64,000 nucleotides of DNA from Sedimentibacter hydroxybenzoicus DSM 7310. Lineage in GTDB: Bacteria; Bacillota; Clostridia; Tissierellales; Sedimentibacteraceae. Shown here piece after piece: positions 54,776 to 62,597 of this stretch (position 1 is the stretch's first letter; each line of letters opens with the position of its first letter). The notes below the pieces were generated by a model. The model saw nothing but the letters and a program-made list of their open reading frames with translations. It was not told where the DNA came from and did no database searches. A program made the position numbers and the translations under genes. Where the stretch lies: NCBI RefSeq assembly GCF_013403245.1, contig NZ_JACBNQ010000017.1, positions 1 through 64,000 of the forward strand. The letters are read 5' to 3'.

Positions 54776-54781
54776 ATATAT

Positions 54782-54819
54782 AAGGATACAAACAAAACAG
54801 TTTGTATCCTTAATTTTTT
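54782..54819 (+). terminator. Terminator after the DUF2508 gene
   Basis: A perfect 12-bp stem (54782-54793 with 54800-54811) with a 6-nt loop is followed by AATTTTTT. Confidence 0.9.
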
Positions 54820-55260: not shown

Positions 55261-55878
55261 ATGAGTTATGAGTTTAATATAACAGGGGATAGCGAGAATG
55301 GTAATGAGGCGGAACCTATTAGCTTAGACGAAGCTGAAGAAGTTAAAGATATAGTTGCTTTGATCGGTAACTTTGTAAGAGACAAGTCTTCTGAGGGGCA
55401 ATTGGTAAATGGTGAGGAGCTGCTGGAGGAGCCACTGTCTGTAGAGGTGGAGGATATCATACCAACCATAGAAGAGCTCAGGCTAAGGGAAGACTTTTCA
55501 GATATAATTATGTATAAAGGAAAAGAAAAAATATATTTATATTCTGAAAAATTTATAACCCCAAATTATGCCAATATTATGATAACAGCAGAGGAAAAAG
55601 ACTTTTTTAAAATGATTGTCGATACGGTCAGACAAGAATCAAGAATTTATCCGAGACCAACCAGCGTCAATCTTTTCAGAAAAGCTCCCTTTAATATGTC
55701 TAAGGATGAGTTTTTCAAAGTTTATAATCAATTGAAAAGAAAAGAAGAATATGAGGATATTAAAGAGGTCAAAGCATCTAACGATGCCATATATTTGTAC
55801 TCAGATGAGTTTATGAAGAAAGCACATGCGCGTTCAATCGCCGAATGGATAGAAGTAGAATCAGAACAAAACCCATAA
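55261..55878 (+). CDS. Unrecognised acidic protein leading the AOR/Tat cluster
   Basis: A 205-residue cytoplasmic protein without signal or membrane segment. The N-terminal 75 residues are very acidic. The rest contains two related blocks, GKEKIYLYSEKFITPNYANI (about 92-111) and SNDAIYLYSDEFMKKAHARS (about 174-193), suggesting an internal duplication. I do not recognise a family; a role like that of E. coli YdhW, the accessory protein beside an AOR-type enzyme, is possible from context. GGAGGG precedes the ATG. It is first in a run of eight same-strand genes. Confidence 0.7.
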   Translation: MSYEFNITGDSENGNEAEPISLDEAEEVKDIVALIGNFVRDKSSEGQLVNGEELLEEPLSVEVEDIIPTIEELRLREDFSDIIMYKGKEKIYLYSEKFITPNYANIMITAEEKDFFKMIVDTVRQESRIYPRPTSVNLFRKAPFNMSKDEFFKVYNQLKRKEEYEDIKEVKASNDAIYLYSDEFMKKAHARSIAEWIEVESEQNP

Positions 55879-55919
55879 ATTAAAAAAAATATATATTAAT
55901 TTGAAAGGAAGGTATAAAA

Positions 55920-56093
55920 ATGGGCAAATTTGGACCAGGAGAACTAATTTTAATTTTAGCGATAGCATTGGTAATTTTTGGACCCTCAAAATTACCGGAA
56001 ATAGGCAAGGCTCTTGGAAAATCTATTAGTGAATTTAAAAGTAGTGTAAACAAGACAGATAATTCTGCCGACGAAAAAATTGAGGACAATTAG
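55920..56093 (+). CDS. tatA: Twin-arginine translocase TatA/E subunit (short)
   Basis: A 57-residue protein starting [20 protein letters not shown], the TatA transmembrane helix, followed by the [20 protein letters not shown] amphipathic helix and a short acidic tail. GGAAGG precedes the ATG. It lies 49 bp before a gene for a Tat-signal iron-sulfur protein. A second, longer TatA follows the enzyme genes. No TatC gene is in the window. Confidence 0.94.
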
Positions 56094-56142
56094 GGAATAT
56101 TTGAAAATTTTGTATTATCTATTTTGAAGGGAGAGAATAATT

Positions 56143-56823
56143 ATGTTTGAAAGAGAAATTGATAATTTTATCAATAAAGTAAGGACAAGACGTGAATTTT
56201 TAAAGGTGAGCGGTAAAAGTATTGCCGGAGTTGCAGTTACGACTTCAGTCCTGAATCTGATAGGCTGTTCGAAAACTACCGGGGATGAGGACGAACCGGT
56301 TGACAGTGTGCAGGCATTTGTAACTCCTGCAGGATTACTTGTTGCTGAAGCTAACAGATGCACAGGCTGCCAAAGGTGTGAAATGGTCTGTACAGTAACA
56401 AATGACGAAAAAATTCATCCTTTGATATCAAGAGTAAAAATAGCAAGGAATTTTAATTACGGGGAAGAAATAACGGATAATTATCGCCATGAGAACGGAT
56501 ATTTCGGAAACTTTTTAATGACACCGGAAACATGTCATCAATGCGAGGATGCTAAATGCGCAGCTGCATGTCCGAAGCAGGCTATAAACCAAAGCGAAAC
56601 AACAAAAGCCTGGACTGTGGATGATGATCTTTGCATCGGATGCGGAGCATGTACTCAGGCATGTCCATGGAATATGCCTACAATTGATTCCGAAACCAAT
56701 AAATCGACAAAATGCATTTTGTGCGGTGCCTGTGCGGATAATTGCATAACAGGAGCATTAAGGGTTATACCTTGGGAAAAATTTGAAGCTACAGTTAGAA
56801 GAAAAGGTTATTTAGTATCATAA
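56143..56823 (+). CDS. Tat-exported lipoprotein ferredoxin, electron-transfer subunit of AOR
   Basis: A 226-residue iron-sulfur protein. Residues 14-42 form a twin-arginine signal (TRREFLKVSGKSIAG) ending in a lipobox-like LIGC, so it should be exported folded and lipid-anchored outside. The mature part has cysteine sets for four [4Fe-4S] clusters: CTGCQRCEMVC (from about 73), CHQCEDAKCAAACP (from about 129), CIGCGACTQACP (from about 165) and CILCGACADNC (from about 190). It resembles DmsB/YdhX/HycB-type subunits. It is followed 33 bp later by the AOR-family enzyme, its likely partner. Confidence 0.9.
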   Translation: MFEREIDNFINKVRTRREFLKVSGKSIAGVAVTTSVLNLIGCSKTTGDEDEPVDSVQAFVTPAGLLVAEANRCTGCQRCEMVCTVTNDEKIHPLISRVKIARNFNYGEEITDNYRHENGYFGNFLMTPETCHQCEDAKCAAACPKQAINQSETTKAWTVDDDLCIGCGACTQACPWNMPTIDSETNKSTKCILCGACADNCITGALRVIPWEKFEATVRRKGYLVS

Positions 56824-56856
56824 TTATTTAAATAAATTTTGATTGGAGGAAGAATA

Positions 56857-58959
56857 ATGGCTAAAGTAACAGGATGGATAGGGAATTTATTAAGGGTTAA
56901 TTTGACTACCGGTAATATTACAGTTGAAGACTCAATGAAATATAAAGACTTAGTAGGCGGAGCCGGACTTGGATATAAAGTTATATTTGATGAGGTACCT
57001 CAAGGTACAAAAGCTTTTGATGAGGCTAATAAGGTTGTAATTGCTGTAGGTCCTCTTACCGGTACTGCGGCTCCATGCAGCGGAAGAACAAACATTACAT
57101 CATTAGCACCTACAAATCCATATCATGCTATCACAGACAGTCATATGGGAGGAAATTTCGGACCATGGATGAAGTTTGCGGGATATGATGCAATTATAAT
57201 TGAAGGTGCAGCCAAATCTCCTGTATGGGTGAGAATAGAAGATGATAAAGTGTCTATTGAAGATGCAGGCAGCTTGTGGGGAAAAGGCACGGTAGATACC
57301 ACTAAGGCAATCAATGATATAATGGGTAAGGAAGCCTGTATTGCAGCAATAGGTCAGGCAGGTGAAAAACAAAGGAATTTAGCATCAATAGTTAATTCGG
57401 TTAATCACTCAGCCGGAGGACATGGAGGAATATTAGGTGCAAAAAATTTAAAGGCAATAGGTATAATCGGAAAGAGAGCTGTACACCTGGCAGATGAAAA
57501 TGCTAAAGAATGGCTTAAATTAAATGAATATATGATGAGTGATATTATAGGAGCCAACAATCAGCATGTGGTTCCGAATACTCCACAGCCATGGGCTGAA
57601 TATCACAACCCGGGAAGCCGTTGGACAGCACAGCTGGGATTGTTCTGGGGAGCTGCCAATCCACCGGTAGAGACAGGCGAATGCCCTCCGGGAGATAAAA
57701 ACAAGGTTGGTCTTCGTACACAAAAAGCAATATTTGATTTAGGTCCGGTAGCTGAAGAAAGAACAATAAAGATGGCAGGCTGCTATTCATGTCCTATTCG
57801 CTGCCAATCAAATATGTATATGCCGGAACTTGAAAAGTACGGGTTAACTCCTTATGCAACAAGCACATGCATCAACTACTCATCTCCGGGCACTGCAATG
57901 GTTAAGGGATATGCAGACGGGGAAAGCAAGGGAATGGATGCAATGATTACTAAATGTCTCGGCTCAAGACTTGCTGACGATTATGGTATTTGGAGCAATT
58001 ACGGTCAATTGCCAAGAGACTTTAGACATATGTACAACTCAGGAAAGTTGAAAGAAGTTCTTCCTAAGGAAGAATATGATAGTATTAATTTTGATTTATT
58101 GGAAAAAGGTGATCCGGGATGGATGCTTGAATATTATAACAATTTAATTGGGGACGGAGAATTTTCACATCTTTTAGACGGACCTTATTGGATGGCTCAA
58201 AGATGGAGTATGGGTGATGAATATTGGAATGAATACTCAAATAACATATGGTCCAAGATGGCTTATCCAAAGCACCACAGTAATGAAGCGGGAGCACAGG
58301 TAGGAGTATTGGTCAATATTATGTTTAACAGGGATGCTAATTCTCATACCCACATGAACTTTATAGGTGCAGGCCTTCCTATAGGATTATTGAAGGAGAT
58401 TGCCGGCGAGGTCTGGGGTTCTCCCGACGCATTGGATGCTCCAAAGGATTACACACCTATGAACGAATATAAAGCTAAATTTGCTAAATGGTCCATCGAC
58501 AGAAACTTCCTGCATGACTCTATTACTCTTTGTAACTGGGTATGGCCTATGGTTGTTTCGCCGTCTAAATCAAGAAATTATCGTGGAGATACTGCATTGG
58601 AGTCTAAATTCTTCAGCCTGGCTACAGGAATAGAAACATCAGAAGAAGAATTGGATTATATGGCAGAAAGAATATGTACTCTTCACAGAGCGGCAACTAT
58701 CAAGCAAATGGCAACTATTGATATGAGAAATGAACATGATACTATACCTGAATGGGTGTTTAATGTAGACCCCGACATGGAGCCATTTACCGAAGGAACG
58801 GTTAAGCTTGACAGAGATGACATGCAGCTGGCTTTAACAATGCTTTACAAAGAGTATGGATGGGATGAAAAAACCGGAGCACCGACCAGAGCTACTTATG
58901 AAAAGTTAGGTCTTAAGGATGTTGCGGATGAACTAGAAGGATTAAATTTACTTCCTTAG
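56857..58959 (+). CDS. Aldehyde ferredoxin oxidoreductase family enzyme (tungsten/molybdenum)
   Basis: A 700-residue AOR-family oxidoreductase binding a bis-pyranopterin tungsten or molybdenum cofactor and one [4Fe-4S] cluster. The N-terminal domain shows GPLTGTAAPCSGRTNITSLA (about residues 70-89) and SHMGGNFGPWMKFAGYDAI (about 98-116). Cluster ligands are CYSCPIRC (from about 308) with a distal LCNWVWP cysteine (about 569). It lacks a signal peptide; the preceding gene carries one, so export as a complex is plausible. E. coli YdhV is a comparable non-canonical member. The ATG at 56857 has GGAGGA seven bases upstream. Substrate unknown. Confidence 0.92.
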   Translation: MAKVTGWIGNLLRVNLTTGNITVEDSMKYKDLVGGAGLGYKVIFDEVPQGTKAFDEANKVVIAVGPLTGTAAPCSGRTNITSLAPTNPYHAITDSHMGGNFGPWMKFAGYDAIIIEGAAKSPVWVRIEDDKVSIEDAGSLWGKGTVDTTKAINDIMGKEACIAAIGQAGEKQRNLASIVNSVNHSAGGHGGILGAKNLKAIGIIGKRAVHLADENAKEWLKLNEYMMSDIIGANNQHVVPNTPQPWAEYHNPGSRWTAQLGLFWGAANPPVETGECPPGDKNKVGLRTQKAIFDLGPVAEERTIKMAGCYSCPIRCQSNMYMPELEKYGLTPYATSTCINYSSPGTAMVKGYADGESKGMDAMITKCLGSRLADDYGIWSNYGQLPRDFRHMYNSGKLKEVLPKEEYDSINFDLLEKGDPGWMLEYYNNLIGDGEFSHLLDGPYWMAQRWSMGDEYWNEYSNNIWSKMAYPKHHSNEAGAQVGVLVNIMFNRDANSHTHMNFIGAGLPIGLLKEIAGEVWGSPDALDAPKDYTPMNEYKAKFAKWSIDRNFLHDSITLCNWVWPMVVSPSKSRNYRGDTALESKFFSLATGIETSEEELDYMAERICTLHRAATIKQMATIDMRNEHDTIPEWVFNVDPDMEPFTEGTVKLDRDDMQLALTMLYKEYGWDEKTGAPTRATYEKLGLKDVADELEGLNLLP

Positions 58960-58978
58960 GATTGAAAATTGTAAAACG

Positions 58979-59013
58979 GTAAAATGGGAAAGCATTATGT
59001 TTTCCCATTTTAC
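58979..59013 (+). other. Intercistronic hairpin after the AOR gene
   Basis: A perfect 13-bp stem (58979-58991 with 59001-59013) has no T run. It may protect the 3' end of the AOR message or cause partial termination before the polyferredoxin gene. Confidence 0.6.
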
Positions 59014-59031
59014 TTAAAGAGGGAAAGCTTT

Positions 59032-60117
59032 ATGATATTAGATTATTTAATATATAGTTTGACTAAAGATAATCCACCTAAATTAAATAAAGATAAATGC
59101 ATAAATACTTTCATGAAGGGATGCCATATATGTGAGCAGTCCTGCCGGGAAAAAGCTATTTCCGAAAAAAACGGTAATATATTTTTTGATGGAAAATTGT
59201 GTAATGAATGTGGTGTGTGTAGGGTAAAATGTCCAACTCAAGCTATAATGACAGCAGAATGTAAAGATGAAGAAATACTGACTAAGGCGGCTGAAAAACA
59301 AAATTTGGTTATTTCATGTTCGTTGTCGGATACTATAGGAAACTTAAAAGTAAGTTGTTTAAACTCTTTGCATCCCGAGCTTATAGCTTGCATGTTCATA
59401 CTATATGAAGGAAAAAAAATTTATTTCAATTTGAGCAGCTGCATTGATTGTGAACACGGATATGATGAAGAGTTGCTCAGGGACAGTTTAAACAAGGCCT
59501 TAAAATTTGTAAAATCTATGGGAGTAAATCCTTCTTATGAAATACATGAAGAAGAAGATAATCTTTCGGAGCTGGCAACTGAAACTATATCCAGACGCAA
59601 TTTGTTTAAAATGGTAAAAAAAGAATCCGGCAGTATGGTTGTTAAAACCATATCTTCAATAGTTCACCTTGACGAAAGCAATGATAGTCAGATTTCCATA
59701 AGAAAAACATTGTTAAAACTATTGAAAAGTGATAAAATTATCAATAATAGCGGTAATTCGGATGTGTTTTGGGAATGTTGGGAAGTTAACGAAAACTGTG
59801 ACGGATGCGGTAGATGTGTATCCGTATGCCCGGGTAAGGCGTGGAAAATTGAAAATACTGATACAACATCAAAGTTGTATCACAACATGGCCAATTGCTT
59901 CAAATGTGGTTTGTGCAAAAAAGCATGTGATAAGAAGGCCCTGAACAAGGGAAATATAGACAATCCATTTTTGGATGAATTCAATCTTAAAAGGGAAATA
60001 CTTTTTAATATATGCAATATCTGCAGCAGGAAGTATATACCTAAAAATAAAGAAGATGAAAAATGTGATATATGCAAGAAAAAAGAATTACTAAGAGAAA
60101 AAATATCCGCATTATAA
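59032..60117 (+). CDS. Polyferredoxin-like protein of the AOR cluster
   Basis: A 361-residue cytoplasmic protein with four ferredoxin-type cysteine sets in two pairs: CHICEQSC (about 31) and CNECGVCRVKCP (about 58) near the N-terminus; CDGCGRCVSVCP (about 253) and CFKCGLCKKACD (about 280) near the C-terminus. A final rubredoxin/zinc-ribbon-like CNICSRK-x9-CDIC follows. The middle has a Cys-rich SCIDCEHG (about 137). SRRNLFKMVKK near 192 resembles a twin-arginine motif but is internal. The family is not recognised; electron transfer to the oxidoreductase or cofactor/cluster loading are both possible. The start uses GAGGG eight bases upstream. Confidence 0.75.
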   Translation: MILDYLIYSLTKDNPPKLNKDKCINTFMKGCHICEQSCREKAISEKNGNIFFDGKLCNECGVCRVKCPTQAIMTAECKDEEILTKAAEKQNLVISCSLSDTIGNLKVSCLNSLHPELIACMFILYEGKKIYFNLSSCIDCEHGYDEELLRDSLNKALKFVKSMGVNPSYEIHEEEDNLSELATETISRRNLFKMVKKESGSMVVKTISSIVHLDESNDSQISIRKTLLKLLKSDKIINNSGNSDVFWECWEVNENCDGCGRCVSVCPGKAWKIENTDTTSKLYHNMANCFKCGLCKKACDKKALNKGNIDNPFLDEFNLKREILFNICNICSRKYIPKNKEDEKCDICKKKELLREKISAL

Positions 60118-60150
60118 TTAATACAAAATTCTAAAATTAAGGAGGATGTT

Positions 60151-60414
60151 ATGGGCAGGTTAGGACCAGGAGAATTAATACTTTTATTGGCTATTGCTTT
60201 AGTTATATTTGGACCGTCTAAGCTCCCGGAATTAGGAAAATCTTTGGGGAGAACAGTAAATGAGTTTAAAAAATTCTCGAATGATTTAAAGGTAGATGTA
60301 TCCTTAGATGAGAATAAGCCAACAAAAACGGATAAAAAAGAAGATAAAAACAGTTCAAAAGAGAAGCTTGATTTTACAGGATCAAATCAGGCTGATGAGC
60401 ATATAGAACTATAG
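60151..60414 (+). CDS. tatA: Twin-arginine translocase TatA/E subunit (long)
   Basis: An 87-residue TatA with the same core as the 57-residue copy ([20 protein letters not shown]) but a longer, charged C-terminal tail (TKTDKKEDKNSSKEK). AGGAGG precedes the ATG. It lies between the polyferredoxin and cofactor genes, so both TatA paralogues belong to the same run of genes. Clostridia often lack Tat, so two copies here point to a dedicated transport need. Confidence 0.95.
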   Translation: MGRLGPGELILLLAIALVIFGPSKLPELGKSLGRTVNEFKKFSNDLKVDVSLDENKPTKTDKKEDKNSSKEKLDFTGSNQADEHIEL

Positions 60415-60447
60415 TATGTAGAAAAAAACTTTACTACGGAGGTTTGG

Positions 60448-61476
60448 ATGGAATTTTATAACAAATTGTACAATCTTGATATGACACGAGAAAATATAGC
60501 TGTAACAATATTGACGGGTGCAAGCATAGGTGATAAGCTTTTATTATCAGATAAAGAAAAAATATATACCACGAACGAAAATTCGGATTGGAATGAAGTT
60601 ATAGCACAAATTCCTGAAAACAAAAAAAGTCAAACAATTACTGTGGGTAAAGAGAAAATATATTATGAATTCATGCGCCAATCTTTTAATGTAGTGATAT
60701 GCGGTGCTGGACATATATCCATGCCGCTGATTAAAATGTGTAAAATGCTGGCATTACCTGTAACGGTAATAGATGACAGAATTACGTTCACAAACAATGC
60801 AAGAAGGGAGGGCGCTGATAAGGTAATCTGTGAGTCTTTTGTTGATGCTTTGCGTAAGGTTGAGGGAGATACCGGAACCTTTTTTATAATAGTTACAAGA
60901 GGACACCGATATGATCAGGAATGCTTGCAAAGTATTATACAAAAAGAAAATGCATATATAGGGATGATCGGCAGCAAATTGAGAGTTAAAAAGGTTCTTG
61001 AATATTTAGAGAGCGAGGGAACTCCAAAAGAAAAGCTTGATGCGGTATATACTCCCATAGGCTTAAAGATTGGAGCTGAAACTCCGGCTGAGATTGCGGT
61101 TTCAATTATGGCTCAGGTTATAGAGGTAAAAAATAAAAAAGCGGGAGCAGGTACATATCCCGAAGAATTGAGAAATTGCTTGTTCAGCGAAAAGCATAGA
61201 GACATTCCCAAGTCTTTGGTTACATTAGTTTCAAGGAAGGGTTCAGCTCCGAGAGAAGTCGGTACAAAAATGATTATACTGAAGGATGGAAATACTGAGG
61301 GTACTATTGGAGGCGGATGTGTAGAAGCAAATATAAGGCAGACGGCTCTTTCTTGCATGGATAATATGGAATCCCGGTTAGTTAAAGTTGATATGACCGG
61401 AATAGAGGCAGAAGAAGAAGGAATGGTCTGCGGCGGAATAGTAGAATTGTTTGTAGAGCCGATTATAAATATTTAG
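60448..61476 (+). CDS. XdhC family molybdenum/tungsten enzyme maturation protein, swapped domain order
   Basis: A 342-residue protein related to XdhC/CoxI, which bind and sulfurate the molybdenum cofactor before insertion into hydroxylases. The NAD-binding-like Rossmann domain with VVICGAGHISMPLIKMC is at about residues 80-96. The block usually at the N-terminus, PREVGTKMIILKDG with GTIGGGCVEANIRQ, lies at about 270-295, and MVCGGIVELFVEP closes the protein. The common XdhC order is thus reversed. GGAGG precedes the start. Its position in the AOR cluster suggests a role in pterin-cofactor delivery. Confidence 0.85.
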   Translation: MEFYNKLYNLDMTRENIAVTILTGASIGDKLLLSDKEKIYTTNENSDWNEVIAQIPENKKSQTITVGKEKIYYEFMRQSFNVVICGAGHISMPLIKMCKMLALPVTVIDDRITFTNNARREGADKVICESFVDALRKVEGDTGTFFIIVTRGHRYDQECLQSIIQKENAYIGMIGSKLRVKKVLEYLESEGTPKEKLDAVYTPIGLKIGAETPAEIAVSIMAQVIEVKNKKAGAGTYPEELRNCLFSEKHRDIPKSLVTLVSRKGSAPREVGTKMIILKDGNTEGTIGGGCVEANIRQTALSCMDNMESRLVKVDMTGIEAEEEGMVCGGIVELFVEPIINI

Positions 61477-61493
61477 AATTACGGGAGCAGGAC

Positions 61494-62528
61494 ATGAAAC
61501 AAATTAAAACAACAGATGCGGTTGGACATGTACTATGTCACGACATAACTCAAATAATCAAGGATGTTACAAAGGATGTAGTTTTTAAAAAAGGGCACGT
61601 AGTCAGAGAAGAAGATATACCGGTTCTTTTATCTGTGGGGAAAGAAAATCTTTTTGTATGGGAAAAGCAGGAAGGTATGCTGCATGAAAATGAAGCTGCA
61701 GAAATACTTTATGAAGTATGCAAAAATGATTATATGAAACCATCACCGGTAAAAGAAGGCAAAATAGAAGTTATAGCTGATATAGACGGTTTGTTTAAGC
61801 TGGATTCAGAAAGACTTCTGAAAATAAATAGCCTGGGCGAAATTATTATAGCAACGAGACATGGAAATACAATTGTAAAAAAAGGGGACAAGTTAGCAGG
61901 TACAAGAGTTATTCCACTTATAATCGAAGAAGAAAAAATAAAGAAGGTTCAGGAAATTGGCGAAAGTAAGCCTATAATGTCAATACTTCCGTTTAAACAT
62001 AAAAAGGTGGGGATAGTTACCACAGGAAGCGAAATTTTTCATGGAAGAATCAAAGATACCTTCGGACCTGTGATCGTTGATAAATTCGGAGAGTTTGACT
62101 CTGAAATACTTGGACAGACAATTGTGAATGACAATAAGAATGAAATTACAGCGGCAATACTTGAGTTTGTTGAAAATGGAGCGGATATAGTGGTTTGTAC
62201 CGGAGGAATGAGCGTTGACCCTGACGATCATACACCGGGTGCCATAAAAGATACCGGAGCAGAAATAGTTACCTACGGAGCTCCTGTGCTTCCCGGAGCT
62301 ATGATGCTGGTGTCATATTATAATCGTAACGGCAGAGAAATACCTGTATTAGGACTTCCGGGATGTGTTATGTATGCAAAGCGCACTATATTCGATTTGC
62401 TTCTTCCGCGAATAATGGCTGATGACAAAATAATCAAATCAGATATATATCGTTTAGGTGAAGGGGGATTGTGTTTAAACTGCCAGGTTTGCACATATCC
62501 TAACTGTGGATTTGGAAAGGGCCGTTAG
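61494..62528 (+). CDS. Molybdopterin-binding protein (MoeA/MogA-like)
   Basis: A 344-residue protein with the MoCF-biosynthesis domain at about residues 168-315: VGIVTTGSEIFHGRIKDTFG, then VVCTGGMSVDPDDHTPGAI and LPGCVMYAKRTIFDLLLPRI. The N-terminal half resembles a degenerate MoeA domain. The extreme C-terminus CLNCQVCTYPNCGFGKGR carries four cysteines that could bind a metal or cluster. Such proteins bind adenylylated molybdopterin or catalyse metal insertion. It is the last gene of the cluster, 17 bp after the XdhC-like gene. Confidence 0.88.
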   Translation: MKQIKTTDAVGHVLCHDITQIIKDVTKDVVFKKGHVVREEDIPVLLSVGKENLFVWEKQEGMLHENEAAEILYEVCKNDYMKPSPVKEGKIEVIADIDGLFKLDSERLLKINSLGEIIIATRHGNTIVKKGDKLAGTRVIPLIIEEEKIKKVQEIGESKPIMSILPFKHKKVGIVTTGSEIFHGRIKDTFGPVIVDKFGEFDSEILGQTIVNDNKNEITAAILEFVENGADIVVCTGGMSVDPDDHTPGAIKDTGAEIVTYGAPVLPGAMMLVSYYNRNGREIPVLGLPGCVMYAKRTIFDLLLPRIMADDKIIKSDIYRLGEGGLCLNCQVCTYPNCGFGKGR

Positions 62529-62562
62529 TGGTTTTAATTCAAAATATCATGTTAATATTAAT

Positions 62563-62592
62563 AAGGATGCAAACAAAACAATTTGCATCCTT
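62563..62592. terminator. Bidirectional terminator ending the AOR cluster
   Basis: An 11-bp perfect stem (62563-62573 with 62582-62592) lies between the molybdopterin gene and the convergent regulator gene. It resembles the hairpin at 54782. Confidence 0.8.
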
Positions 62593-62597
62593 AAATT

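Follow-up and report, generated by a model that had tools for sequence, protein, structure and literature searches.

The question posed by a probably exported AOR-family enzyme

Genes for a tungsten- or molybdenum-dependent (W/Mo) enzyme of the AOR family that stand among genes for twin-arginine translocation (Tat) raise three questions: on which side of the membrane the enzyme works, which reaction it carries out and where its electrons go. Such a cluster lies in a 64,000-nucleotide stretch of Sedimentibacter hydroxybenzoicus DSM 7310 (contig NZ_JACBNQ010000017.1, positions 1 to 64,000; hereafter the window). Eight + strand open reading frames (ORFs), all in one direction, span positions 55261..62528; the host genome comprises 3.8 Mb in 71 contigs. 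The reading that we favor, with moderate confidence, is that the cluster encodes an outward-facing, lipid-anchored W/Mo enzyme of the YdhV type, probably with a reaction other than aldehyde oxidation, together with helpers for its assembly and export. The eight genes are:

55261..55878, +, ydhW homologue (205 aa; NF007411, 195.6 bits), acidic and without signal
55920..56093, +, TatA1 (57 aa; PF02416, 70 bits)
56143..56823, +, WorS/YdhY, Tat-signal lipoprotein ferredoxin (NF007382, 284 bits; 43% identical to YdhY)
56857..58959, +, WorL/YdhV, W/Mo pyranopterin catalytic subunit (700 aa; NF007354, 1135 bits)
59032..60117, +, polyferredoxin (361 aa), a ferredoxin-repeat protein without signal or membrane span
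60151..60414, +, TatA2 (87 aa, with a longer charged tail; PF02416, 63 bits)
60448..61476, +, XdhC-type cofactor maturation protein (PF13478 at 82-224, PF02625 at 254-314)
61494..62528, +, MoeA/MoaB-like molybdopterin-binding protein (PF00994, 91 bits) with a Cys-rich C-terminal tail

The ORFs and the Pfam and NCBIfam matches bore out the eight genes and the domain calls of an earlier note on this DNA. Profile cut-offs were 203 (NF007411), 213 (NF007382), 868 (NF007354) and 350 (NF045664); the YdhW match is slightly below its cut-off, and the XdhC-type protein scored 258.6 bits against NF045664, under the cut-off. Judged by the ribosome-binding sequence (GGAGGA) and by relatives, WorL starts at ATG 56857 rather than TTG 56839, and a ribosome-binding-like sequence, in agreement with relatives, makes ATG 59032 the most likely polyferredoxin start rather than 58984.

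WorS as the probable carrier of the export signal for the pair

The translated N-terminus of WorS reads TRREFLK and then LIGC, followed by 16 Cys in four groups of four. In a whole-genome scan with TIGR01409, WorS was marginal (16.4 bits, or 16.8 bits with its in-frame neighbours; cut-off 16.7). The PF10518 scan did not list WorS, only a lipoprotein on contig C20 that was below the cut-off, and a hydropathy scan, of a kind that can miss signals, found no strongly hydrophobic stretch in WorS. Across a non-redundant set of 28 related loci, selected by a BLAST score >350 and an identity of at least 40% for WorL and not counting the window, WorS carried a twin-arginine motif in 27, as RRxF[LM] in 21 (Firmicutes) and RRxVV in six (Coriobacteria), with none in L053, while WorL carried one in none (0/28); the window's WorL likewise has no signal. 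A lipobox followed the WorS motif in 18 of the 28 loci, that is, in 18 of the 21 Firmicutes rows. Thus the suggestion of the earlier note that the enzyme hitchhikes through the membrane appears likely, and export of WorL on the signal of WorS is well supported by this distribution of motifs. The pairing of the two proteins rests on homology, as their homologues share the solved entries 8c0z, 6x1o and 9mqx.

The genome holds one detected tatC, on another contig, and four tatA, two of them within the cluster; tblastn found no tatC in the window. The presence of tatC somewhere in the genome, which the earlier note had asked for, was therefore confirmed, and its description of the cluster as self-contained for Tat export holds only in part.

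Two TIGR01409 Tat signals were found in the genome, that of WorS and that of the C20 lipoprotein, which is of the C_GCAxxG_C_C type. The latter (L037:7568-8451) has its own tatA directly after it; it resembles split-Soret cytochromes (115 bits against a cut-off of 400) and has no CxxCH haem motif.

The active site groups with YdhV rather than with aldehyde enzymes

WorL carries AFOR_N and AFOR_C domains and is 88% and 84% identical to its counterparts in Firmicutes bacterium UBA6113 and Sedimentibacter sp. LM3-B4.1, respectively. In a quick tree of 35 WorL proteins it fell within the clade of E. coli YdhV (32 rows; support of 100 in the Shimodaira-Hasegawa-like approximate likelihood ratio test, SH-aLRT), with three other AOR-family rows apart on long branches. 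In an alignment of 27 rows (the window, E. coli YdhV and 25 others), the [4Fe-4S] ligands Cys309, Cys312, Cys316 and Cys559 were invariant, and Cys338, in the column of YdhV Cys336, was Cys in 27 of 27 sequences. According to a 2025 review (PMC12096430), i) YdhV Cys336 is a ligand of the metal, a feature that it assigns otherwise only to the benzoyl-CoA reductase BamB; ii) aldehyde oxidoreductases have no protein ligand on the metal; and iii) the YdhV clade is without the second-shell residues of the aldehyde enzymes. WorL thus departs from the ligand-free metal site of aldehyde oxidoreductases, the ligand role of the Cys338 column being taken from the review; the BamB counterpart of this column was not confirmed, as the profile alignment ends at BamB residue 321. 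Since Cys338 occupies the metal-ligand position of YdhV, the chemistry of WorL is probably other than aldehyde oxidation; that it is a reduction is a guess.

The same data bear on whether WorL might, as an exported aldehyde oxidoreductase, serve to detoxify aldehydes outside the cell and pass electrons outward to flavins. The AFOR domains and the AOR-type small-subunit homologues of WorS speak for it. Against it stand the Cys338 column and the report that the partly purified WorL of Cetobacterium somerae, without its WorS, oxidized none of 46 aldehydes (PMC13328260), the sole Class V enzyme tested. We consider this explanation very unlikely. The label "AOR-family" given by the earlier note is therefore not to be taken in an aldehyde-oxidizing sense.

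As to the metal, the genome encodes a TupA-like protein (66% identical to one beside a type-B cluster, as defined below; NF041772, 217 bits, under the cut-off of 400) alongside ModA, and the presence of both is compatible with either W or Mo.

Place among known systems

Tat-signal enzymes of this family are already described as a class. Class V of the tungsten-containing oxidoreductases (WORs) comprises membrane-associated WorL/WorS pairs in which WorS bears either a Tat signal or a membrane domain, and WorL with a Tat-signal WorS has been published as its clade 41 (PMC13328260, 2026); this definition covers a Tat-exported AOR-family enzyme, so the headline is not new. The window's enzyme agrees with it in the YdhV clade (SH-aLRT 100; 1135 bits against the cut-off of 868) and in the TRREFLK and LIGC of WorS (16.8 bits with neighbours against 16.7); a ydhW gene is also present, which does not by itself settle whether YdhW is a subunit. 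Clade 41 members (C. somerae WOR41LSW, E. coli YdhVYW) likewise combine WorL/YdhV, a Tat-signal WorS and a YdhW-type third protein, and the C. somerae operon has Tat genes nearby, as the window does (PMC13328260). Compared with clade 41, the lineage of the window is distinguished by the addition of a polyferredoxin and of a second TatA, by XdhC in place of the FdhD of sister clusters, and by a cluster without tatC.

The main text of PMC13328260, whose supplement may draw the arrangement, contains none of the words "polyferredoxin", "XdhC" and "Sedimentibacter", and a literature search returned no paper on tungsten-containing oxidoreductase with hitchhiker or on Sedimentibacter with aldehyde ferredoxin oxidoreductase. 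The additions to the known class are the active-site placement, the type A/B exchange described below, the recurrent polyferredoxin, the predicted tandem winged-helix YdhW and the two detected Tat clients. No activity or role has been assigned to any Class V WOR (PMC13328260); the analysis narrows the question, placing the active site with YdhV and not with aldehyde enzymes.

With respect to E. coli ydhYVWXUT, the window's proteins are 57% (YdhV), 43% (YdhY) and 32% (YdhW) identical, while YdhX, the cytochrome YdhU and YdhT have no separate-gene counterpart in the cluster, which on these identities is the ydhWYV core without YdhX, YdhU and YdhT. The contrast with E. coli in the earlier note was thus overstated. 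The twin arginine is complete in WorS of the window, at a place where E. coli YdhY reads TRLEFL; the latter (L060) retains its lipobox, and YdhX starts with a complete TRRKFV.

Two Firmicutes architectures and a pair of TatA proteins

The survey of gene order that the earlier note had proposed gave two arrangements. Type A, that of the window, runs W-tatA-S-L-polyferredoxin-tatA, often followed by XdhC and a MoeA-like gene, and recurs in related loci; type B, its sister lineage, runs S-L-W-fdhD-tatA, usually with tatC. We made the division on gene order and BLAST presence scans (at least 150 aligned columns, E 1e-8) and excluded the window from the counts; the type-A sample includes two short contigs (L026 ends in WorL, L039 starts in WorS) and two close sisters (L022 and L023). 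FdhD was found in 0/8 type-A and 10/10 type-B loci, TatC in 0/8 and 7/10, the polyferredoxin in 6/8 and 2/10, and XdhC in 4/8 and 0/10. One of the four XdhC proteins is 65% identical to the window's and encoded downstream (L025); the others (L021, L024 and L043) are 39-41% identical and on the opposite strand. Type A formed a single nine-row clade in the WorL tree (SH-aLRT 100). Gene order and tree together place the window in a separate Firmicutes sub-lineage of YdhV clusters.

The two TatA proteins each grouped by gene position. TatA1 grouped with the relatives' TatA encoded between W and S (SH-aLRT 83) and TatA2 with those encoded after the polyferredoxin (SH-aLRT 82); a second tatA followed the polyferredoxin in five of the six type-A loci that have one and was not found in L043. 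The YdhW marker is patchy and was found in 14 of 249 genomes of the order. Of 391 genomes sampled from the class, 3 had the YdhV marker when a strict threshold was applied; both counts include the window's genome. One genome (G170) carries both types; beside its type-A cluster stands another AOR-family gene, only distantly related (34% identical to WorL), together with a 144-aa WorS-like gene (L025:11180-13779). Two Coriobacterial YdhV loci (L052 and L053) have a DMSO-reductase-family molybdoenzyme near WorL/WorS, and L053 also has an NrfD membrane protein.

The polyferredoxin as a putative assembly factor

No signal or membrane span was found in the polyferredoxin. In 15 of 15 homologues an internal twin arginine was invariant, and so were 20 Cys that can be read as five groups of four; in most homologues a hydrophobic pair follows the twin arginine, and a C-terminal CxxC...CxxC was nearly invariant. 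With its twin arginine internal only and no signal, it was rejected as an exported subunit.

A polyferredoxin profile matched in 11 of the 249 genomes of the order (E at most 1e-20). The six strong matches (>500 bits) lie in type-A clusters, while the six weaker ones (117-144 bits, of which G185 contributes one as a second copy) are encoded in operons next to proteins that have twin-arginine-type N-termini. Three of these distant operons were judged from gene order alone; scanned members of the others had DMSO-reductase-family domains (one protein in L100; also L101 and L103), with a TorD-like PF02613 protein in L101 and L103 and a MobA-like protein in L101. In three of the six (L103-L105), tatA immediately precedes the polyferredoxin. 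One polyferredoxin family thus accompanies Tat-signal enzymes of two different Mo/W superfamilies, and this company, with the absence of signal and membrane span, fits a role in assembly.

The closest analogy is NapF of the periplasmic nitrate reductase, also a multi-cluster ferredoxin without signal, with a twin-arginine motif and encoded beside a Tat-exported Fe-S/pterin enzyme. NapF is cytosolic and has four clusters; in vitro, Rhodobacter NapA requires it for reconstitution of its Fe-S cluster, and outside Rhodobacter it is dispensable or of marginal effect (all according to PMC10609526). The polyferredoxin differs from NapF in that its twin arginine is internal and not N-terminal, in its 20 Cys and C-terminal CxxC pair, and in an alignment limited to the Fe-S motifs; the NapF model TIGR00402 gave 25.8 bits (cut-off 102.2), and we claim no NapF membership. 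By this analogy, a NapF-like role in assembly is more likely for the polyferredoxin than one as electron partner.

If it were instead the enzyme's own electron carrier, WorLS would remain on the membrane's inner face, or act before export, and feed cytosolic ferredoxin through it like ordinary WORs. This would suit a protein without signal or span, the cytoplasmic, ferredoxin-linked habit of the simpler WOR classes (PMC13328260) and an earlier survey in which the YdhV of two genomes, without membrane components, was predicted to be cytoplasmic (PMC4257093). It is hard to square with a WorS that has RRxF[LM] in all 21 Firmicutes rows and, in most of these, a lipobox as well, with tatA in nearly all Firmicutes clusters whose neighbourhood was seen (none found in L043; the one in L032 adjoins tatC), and with the Tat-signal DMSO-reductase-type enzymes that accompany the distant polyferredoxins. 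We regard it as unlikely.

In three of the distant operons, TtrA-like genes are split by an in-frame TGA (L103:3232-3234; L104:2758-2760; L105:12140-12142, minus strand), and the common context HGYS-stop-GGSK suggests a selenocysteine enzyme; the gene in L103 matched NF011567 at 546 bits, under the cut-off of 1750. A different in-frame TGA splits a DMSO-reductase-family gene in L100.

YdhW as a predicted tandem winged-helix protein

YdhW contains an internal repeat. Searches with 26 members against Pfam and against PDB sequences gave nothing convincing. An AlphaFold2 model (predicted local distance difference test 85.6, predicted template-modelling score 0.71) showed helices plus a hairpin, twice, in two helix-helix-helix-strand-strand-helix units, the layout of a tandem winged-helix protein. 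A Foldseek search of PDB with this model found no match at E≤0.001, and winged-helix chains were among the PDB matches in a second look. We accordingly describe YdhW as a predicted tandem winged-helix-like protein. TorD is all-helical, and with helices plus a hairpin in the model a TorD-like identity was rejected; Pfam found no TorD-like gene among the window's eight.

We propose YdhW as an assembly chaperone. That YdhW instead binds DNA or RNA and regulates the operon is unlikely in view of an acidic character shared by 26 of 26 members (net charge between -4 and -31, counted with inserts across the part that aligns to residues 29-205) and of the constancy of its company: among 21 YdhV loci fetched by WorL alone, ydhW stood with the enzyme in 20, at differing operon positions, and the one miss (L039) starts inside worS.

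Electron route

The statement that the cluster has no cytochrome b or quinone-reactive subunit holds for the eight genes: Pfam and NCBIfam found neither a cytochrome b nor a membrane quinone-reactive protein among them, a clear membrane span occurs only in the TatA proteins, and none of the eight encodes a transmembrane redox protein. A scan with PF01209, run for the quinone question, gave only partial, weak matches (best 50.7 bits over 112/233 positions), and as the model also matched in 14 of 14 controls, the scan is uninformative on quinones.

Elsewhere the genome holds 17 FMN_bind stretches; among those scanned, three belong to proteins combining FAD_binding_2 and FMN_bind. A 389-aa protein with Fer4_5 and FMN_bind domains (L106:13998-15167), alike in these to PceC/RdhC and NapH-type membrane flavoproteins, is encoded on contig C71, unlinked to the cluster, where it adjoins an FMN_bind plus Oxidored_molyb protein; its role for the cluster is hypothetical. 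The FMN domain of PceC faces outward (PMC5928378). The C71 protein and its neighbour are a possible transmembrane electron hub, and we hypothesize that the FMN_bind proteins and this flavoprotein are the best candidates for an extracytoplasmic partner.

Proposed mechanism

We envisage the following sequence for the outward-facing, lipid-anchored enzyme: i) in the cytosol, the XdhC-type and MoeA-like proteins, judged by their families, would prepare the pyranopterin W/Mo cofactor and insert it into WorL; ii) the polyferredoxin, like NapF, would help to build or protect the Fe-S clusters; iii) YdhW might hold WorL or the signal region of WorS until the complex is complete; iv) the folded WorL-WorS dimer very probably leaves through TatA1/TatA2 and the unlinked TatC, with WorS providing the only signal and becoming lipidated; and v) outside, the WorS clusters may carry electrons between WorL and an extracytoplasmic partner encoded elsewhere than in the cluster.

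A bolder version is tentative, and we think it improbable in full. The host would keep Tat mainly for two lipoproteins, each with an adjacent TatA, as a near-private line. One of them would carry a Cys-ligated W/Mo reductase assembled by new helpers, namely the tandem winged-helix YdhW and the twin-arginine-bearing polyferredoxin common to two unrelated Mo/W superfamilies, and this enzyme, with no dedicated membrane subunit, would connect to a shared flavin network outside the cytoplasm. Were this so, it would amount to cell-surface respiration without a quinone-linked subunit.

From the analysis as a whole, two conserved helpers, YdhW and the polyferredoxin, gain testable roles. If it is right, genes for assembly can be told from genes for electron transfer in operons whose "ferredoxin" is taken for a redox subunit.

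Flanks and further features of the cluster

Two stem-loops bracket the eight genes:

54781..54812, no strand, 32-nt stem-loop, terminator-like, at the left edge of the cluster
62562..62593, no strand, sister 32-nt stem-loop, at the right edge

They are near-identical, with one A-T to G-C change that is compensated, and a search of the 3.8-Mb genome that allowed up to 3 mismatches found no third copy. In the XdhC-type protein the Rossmann domain comes first and the CoxI domain second; XdhC proteins usually have the opposite order, CoxI before Rossmann. The Cys-rich tail of the MoeA/MoaB-like protein, LCLNCQVCTYPNC, falls outside the PF00994 match.

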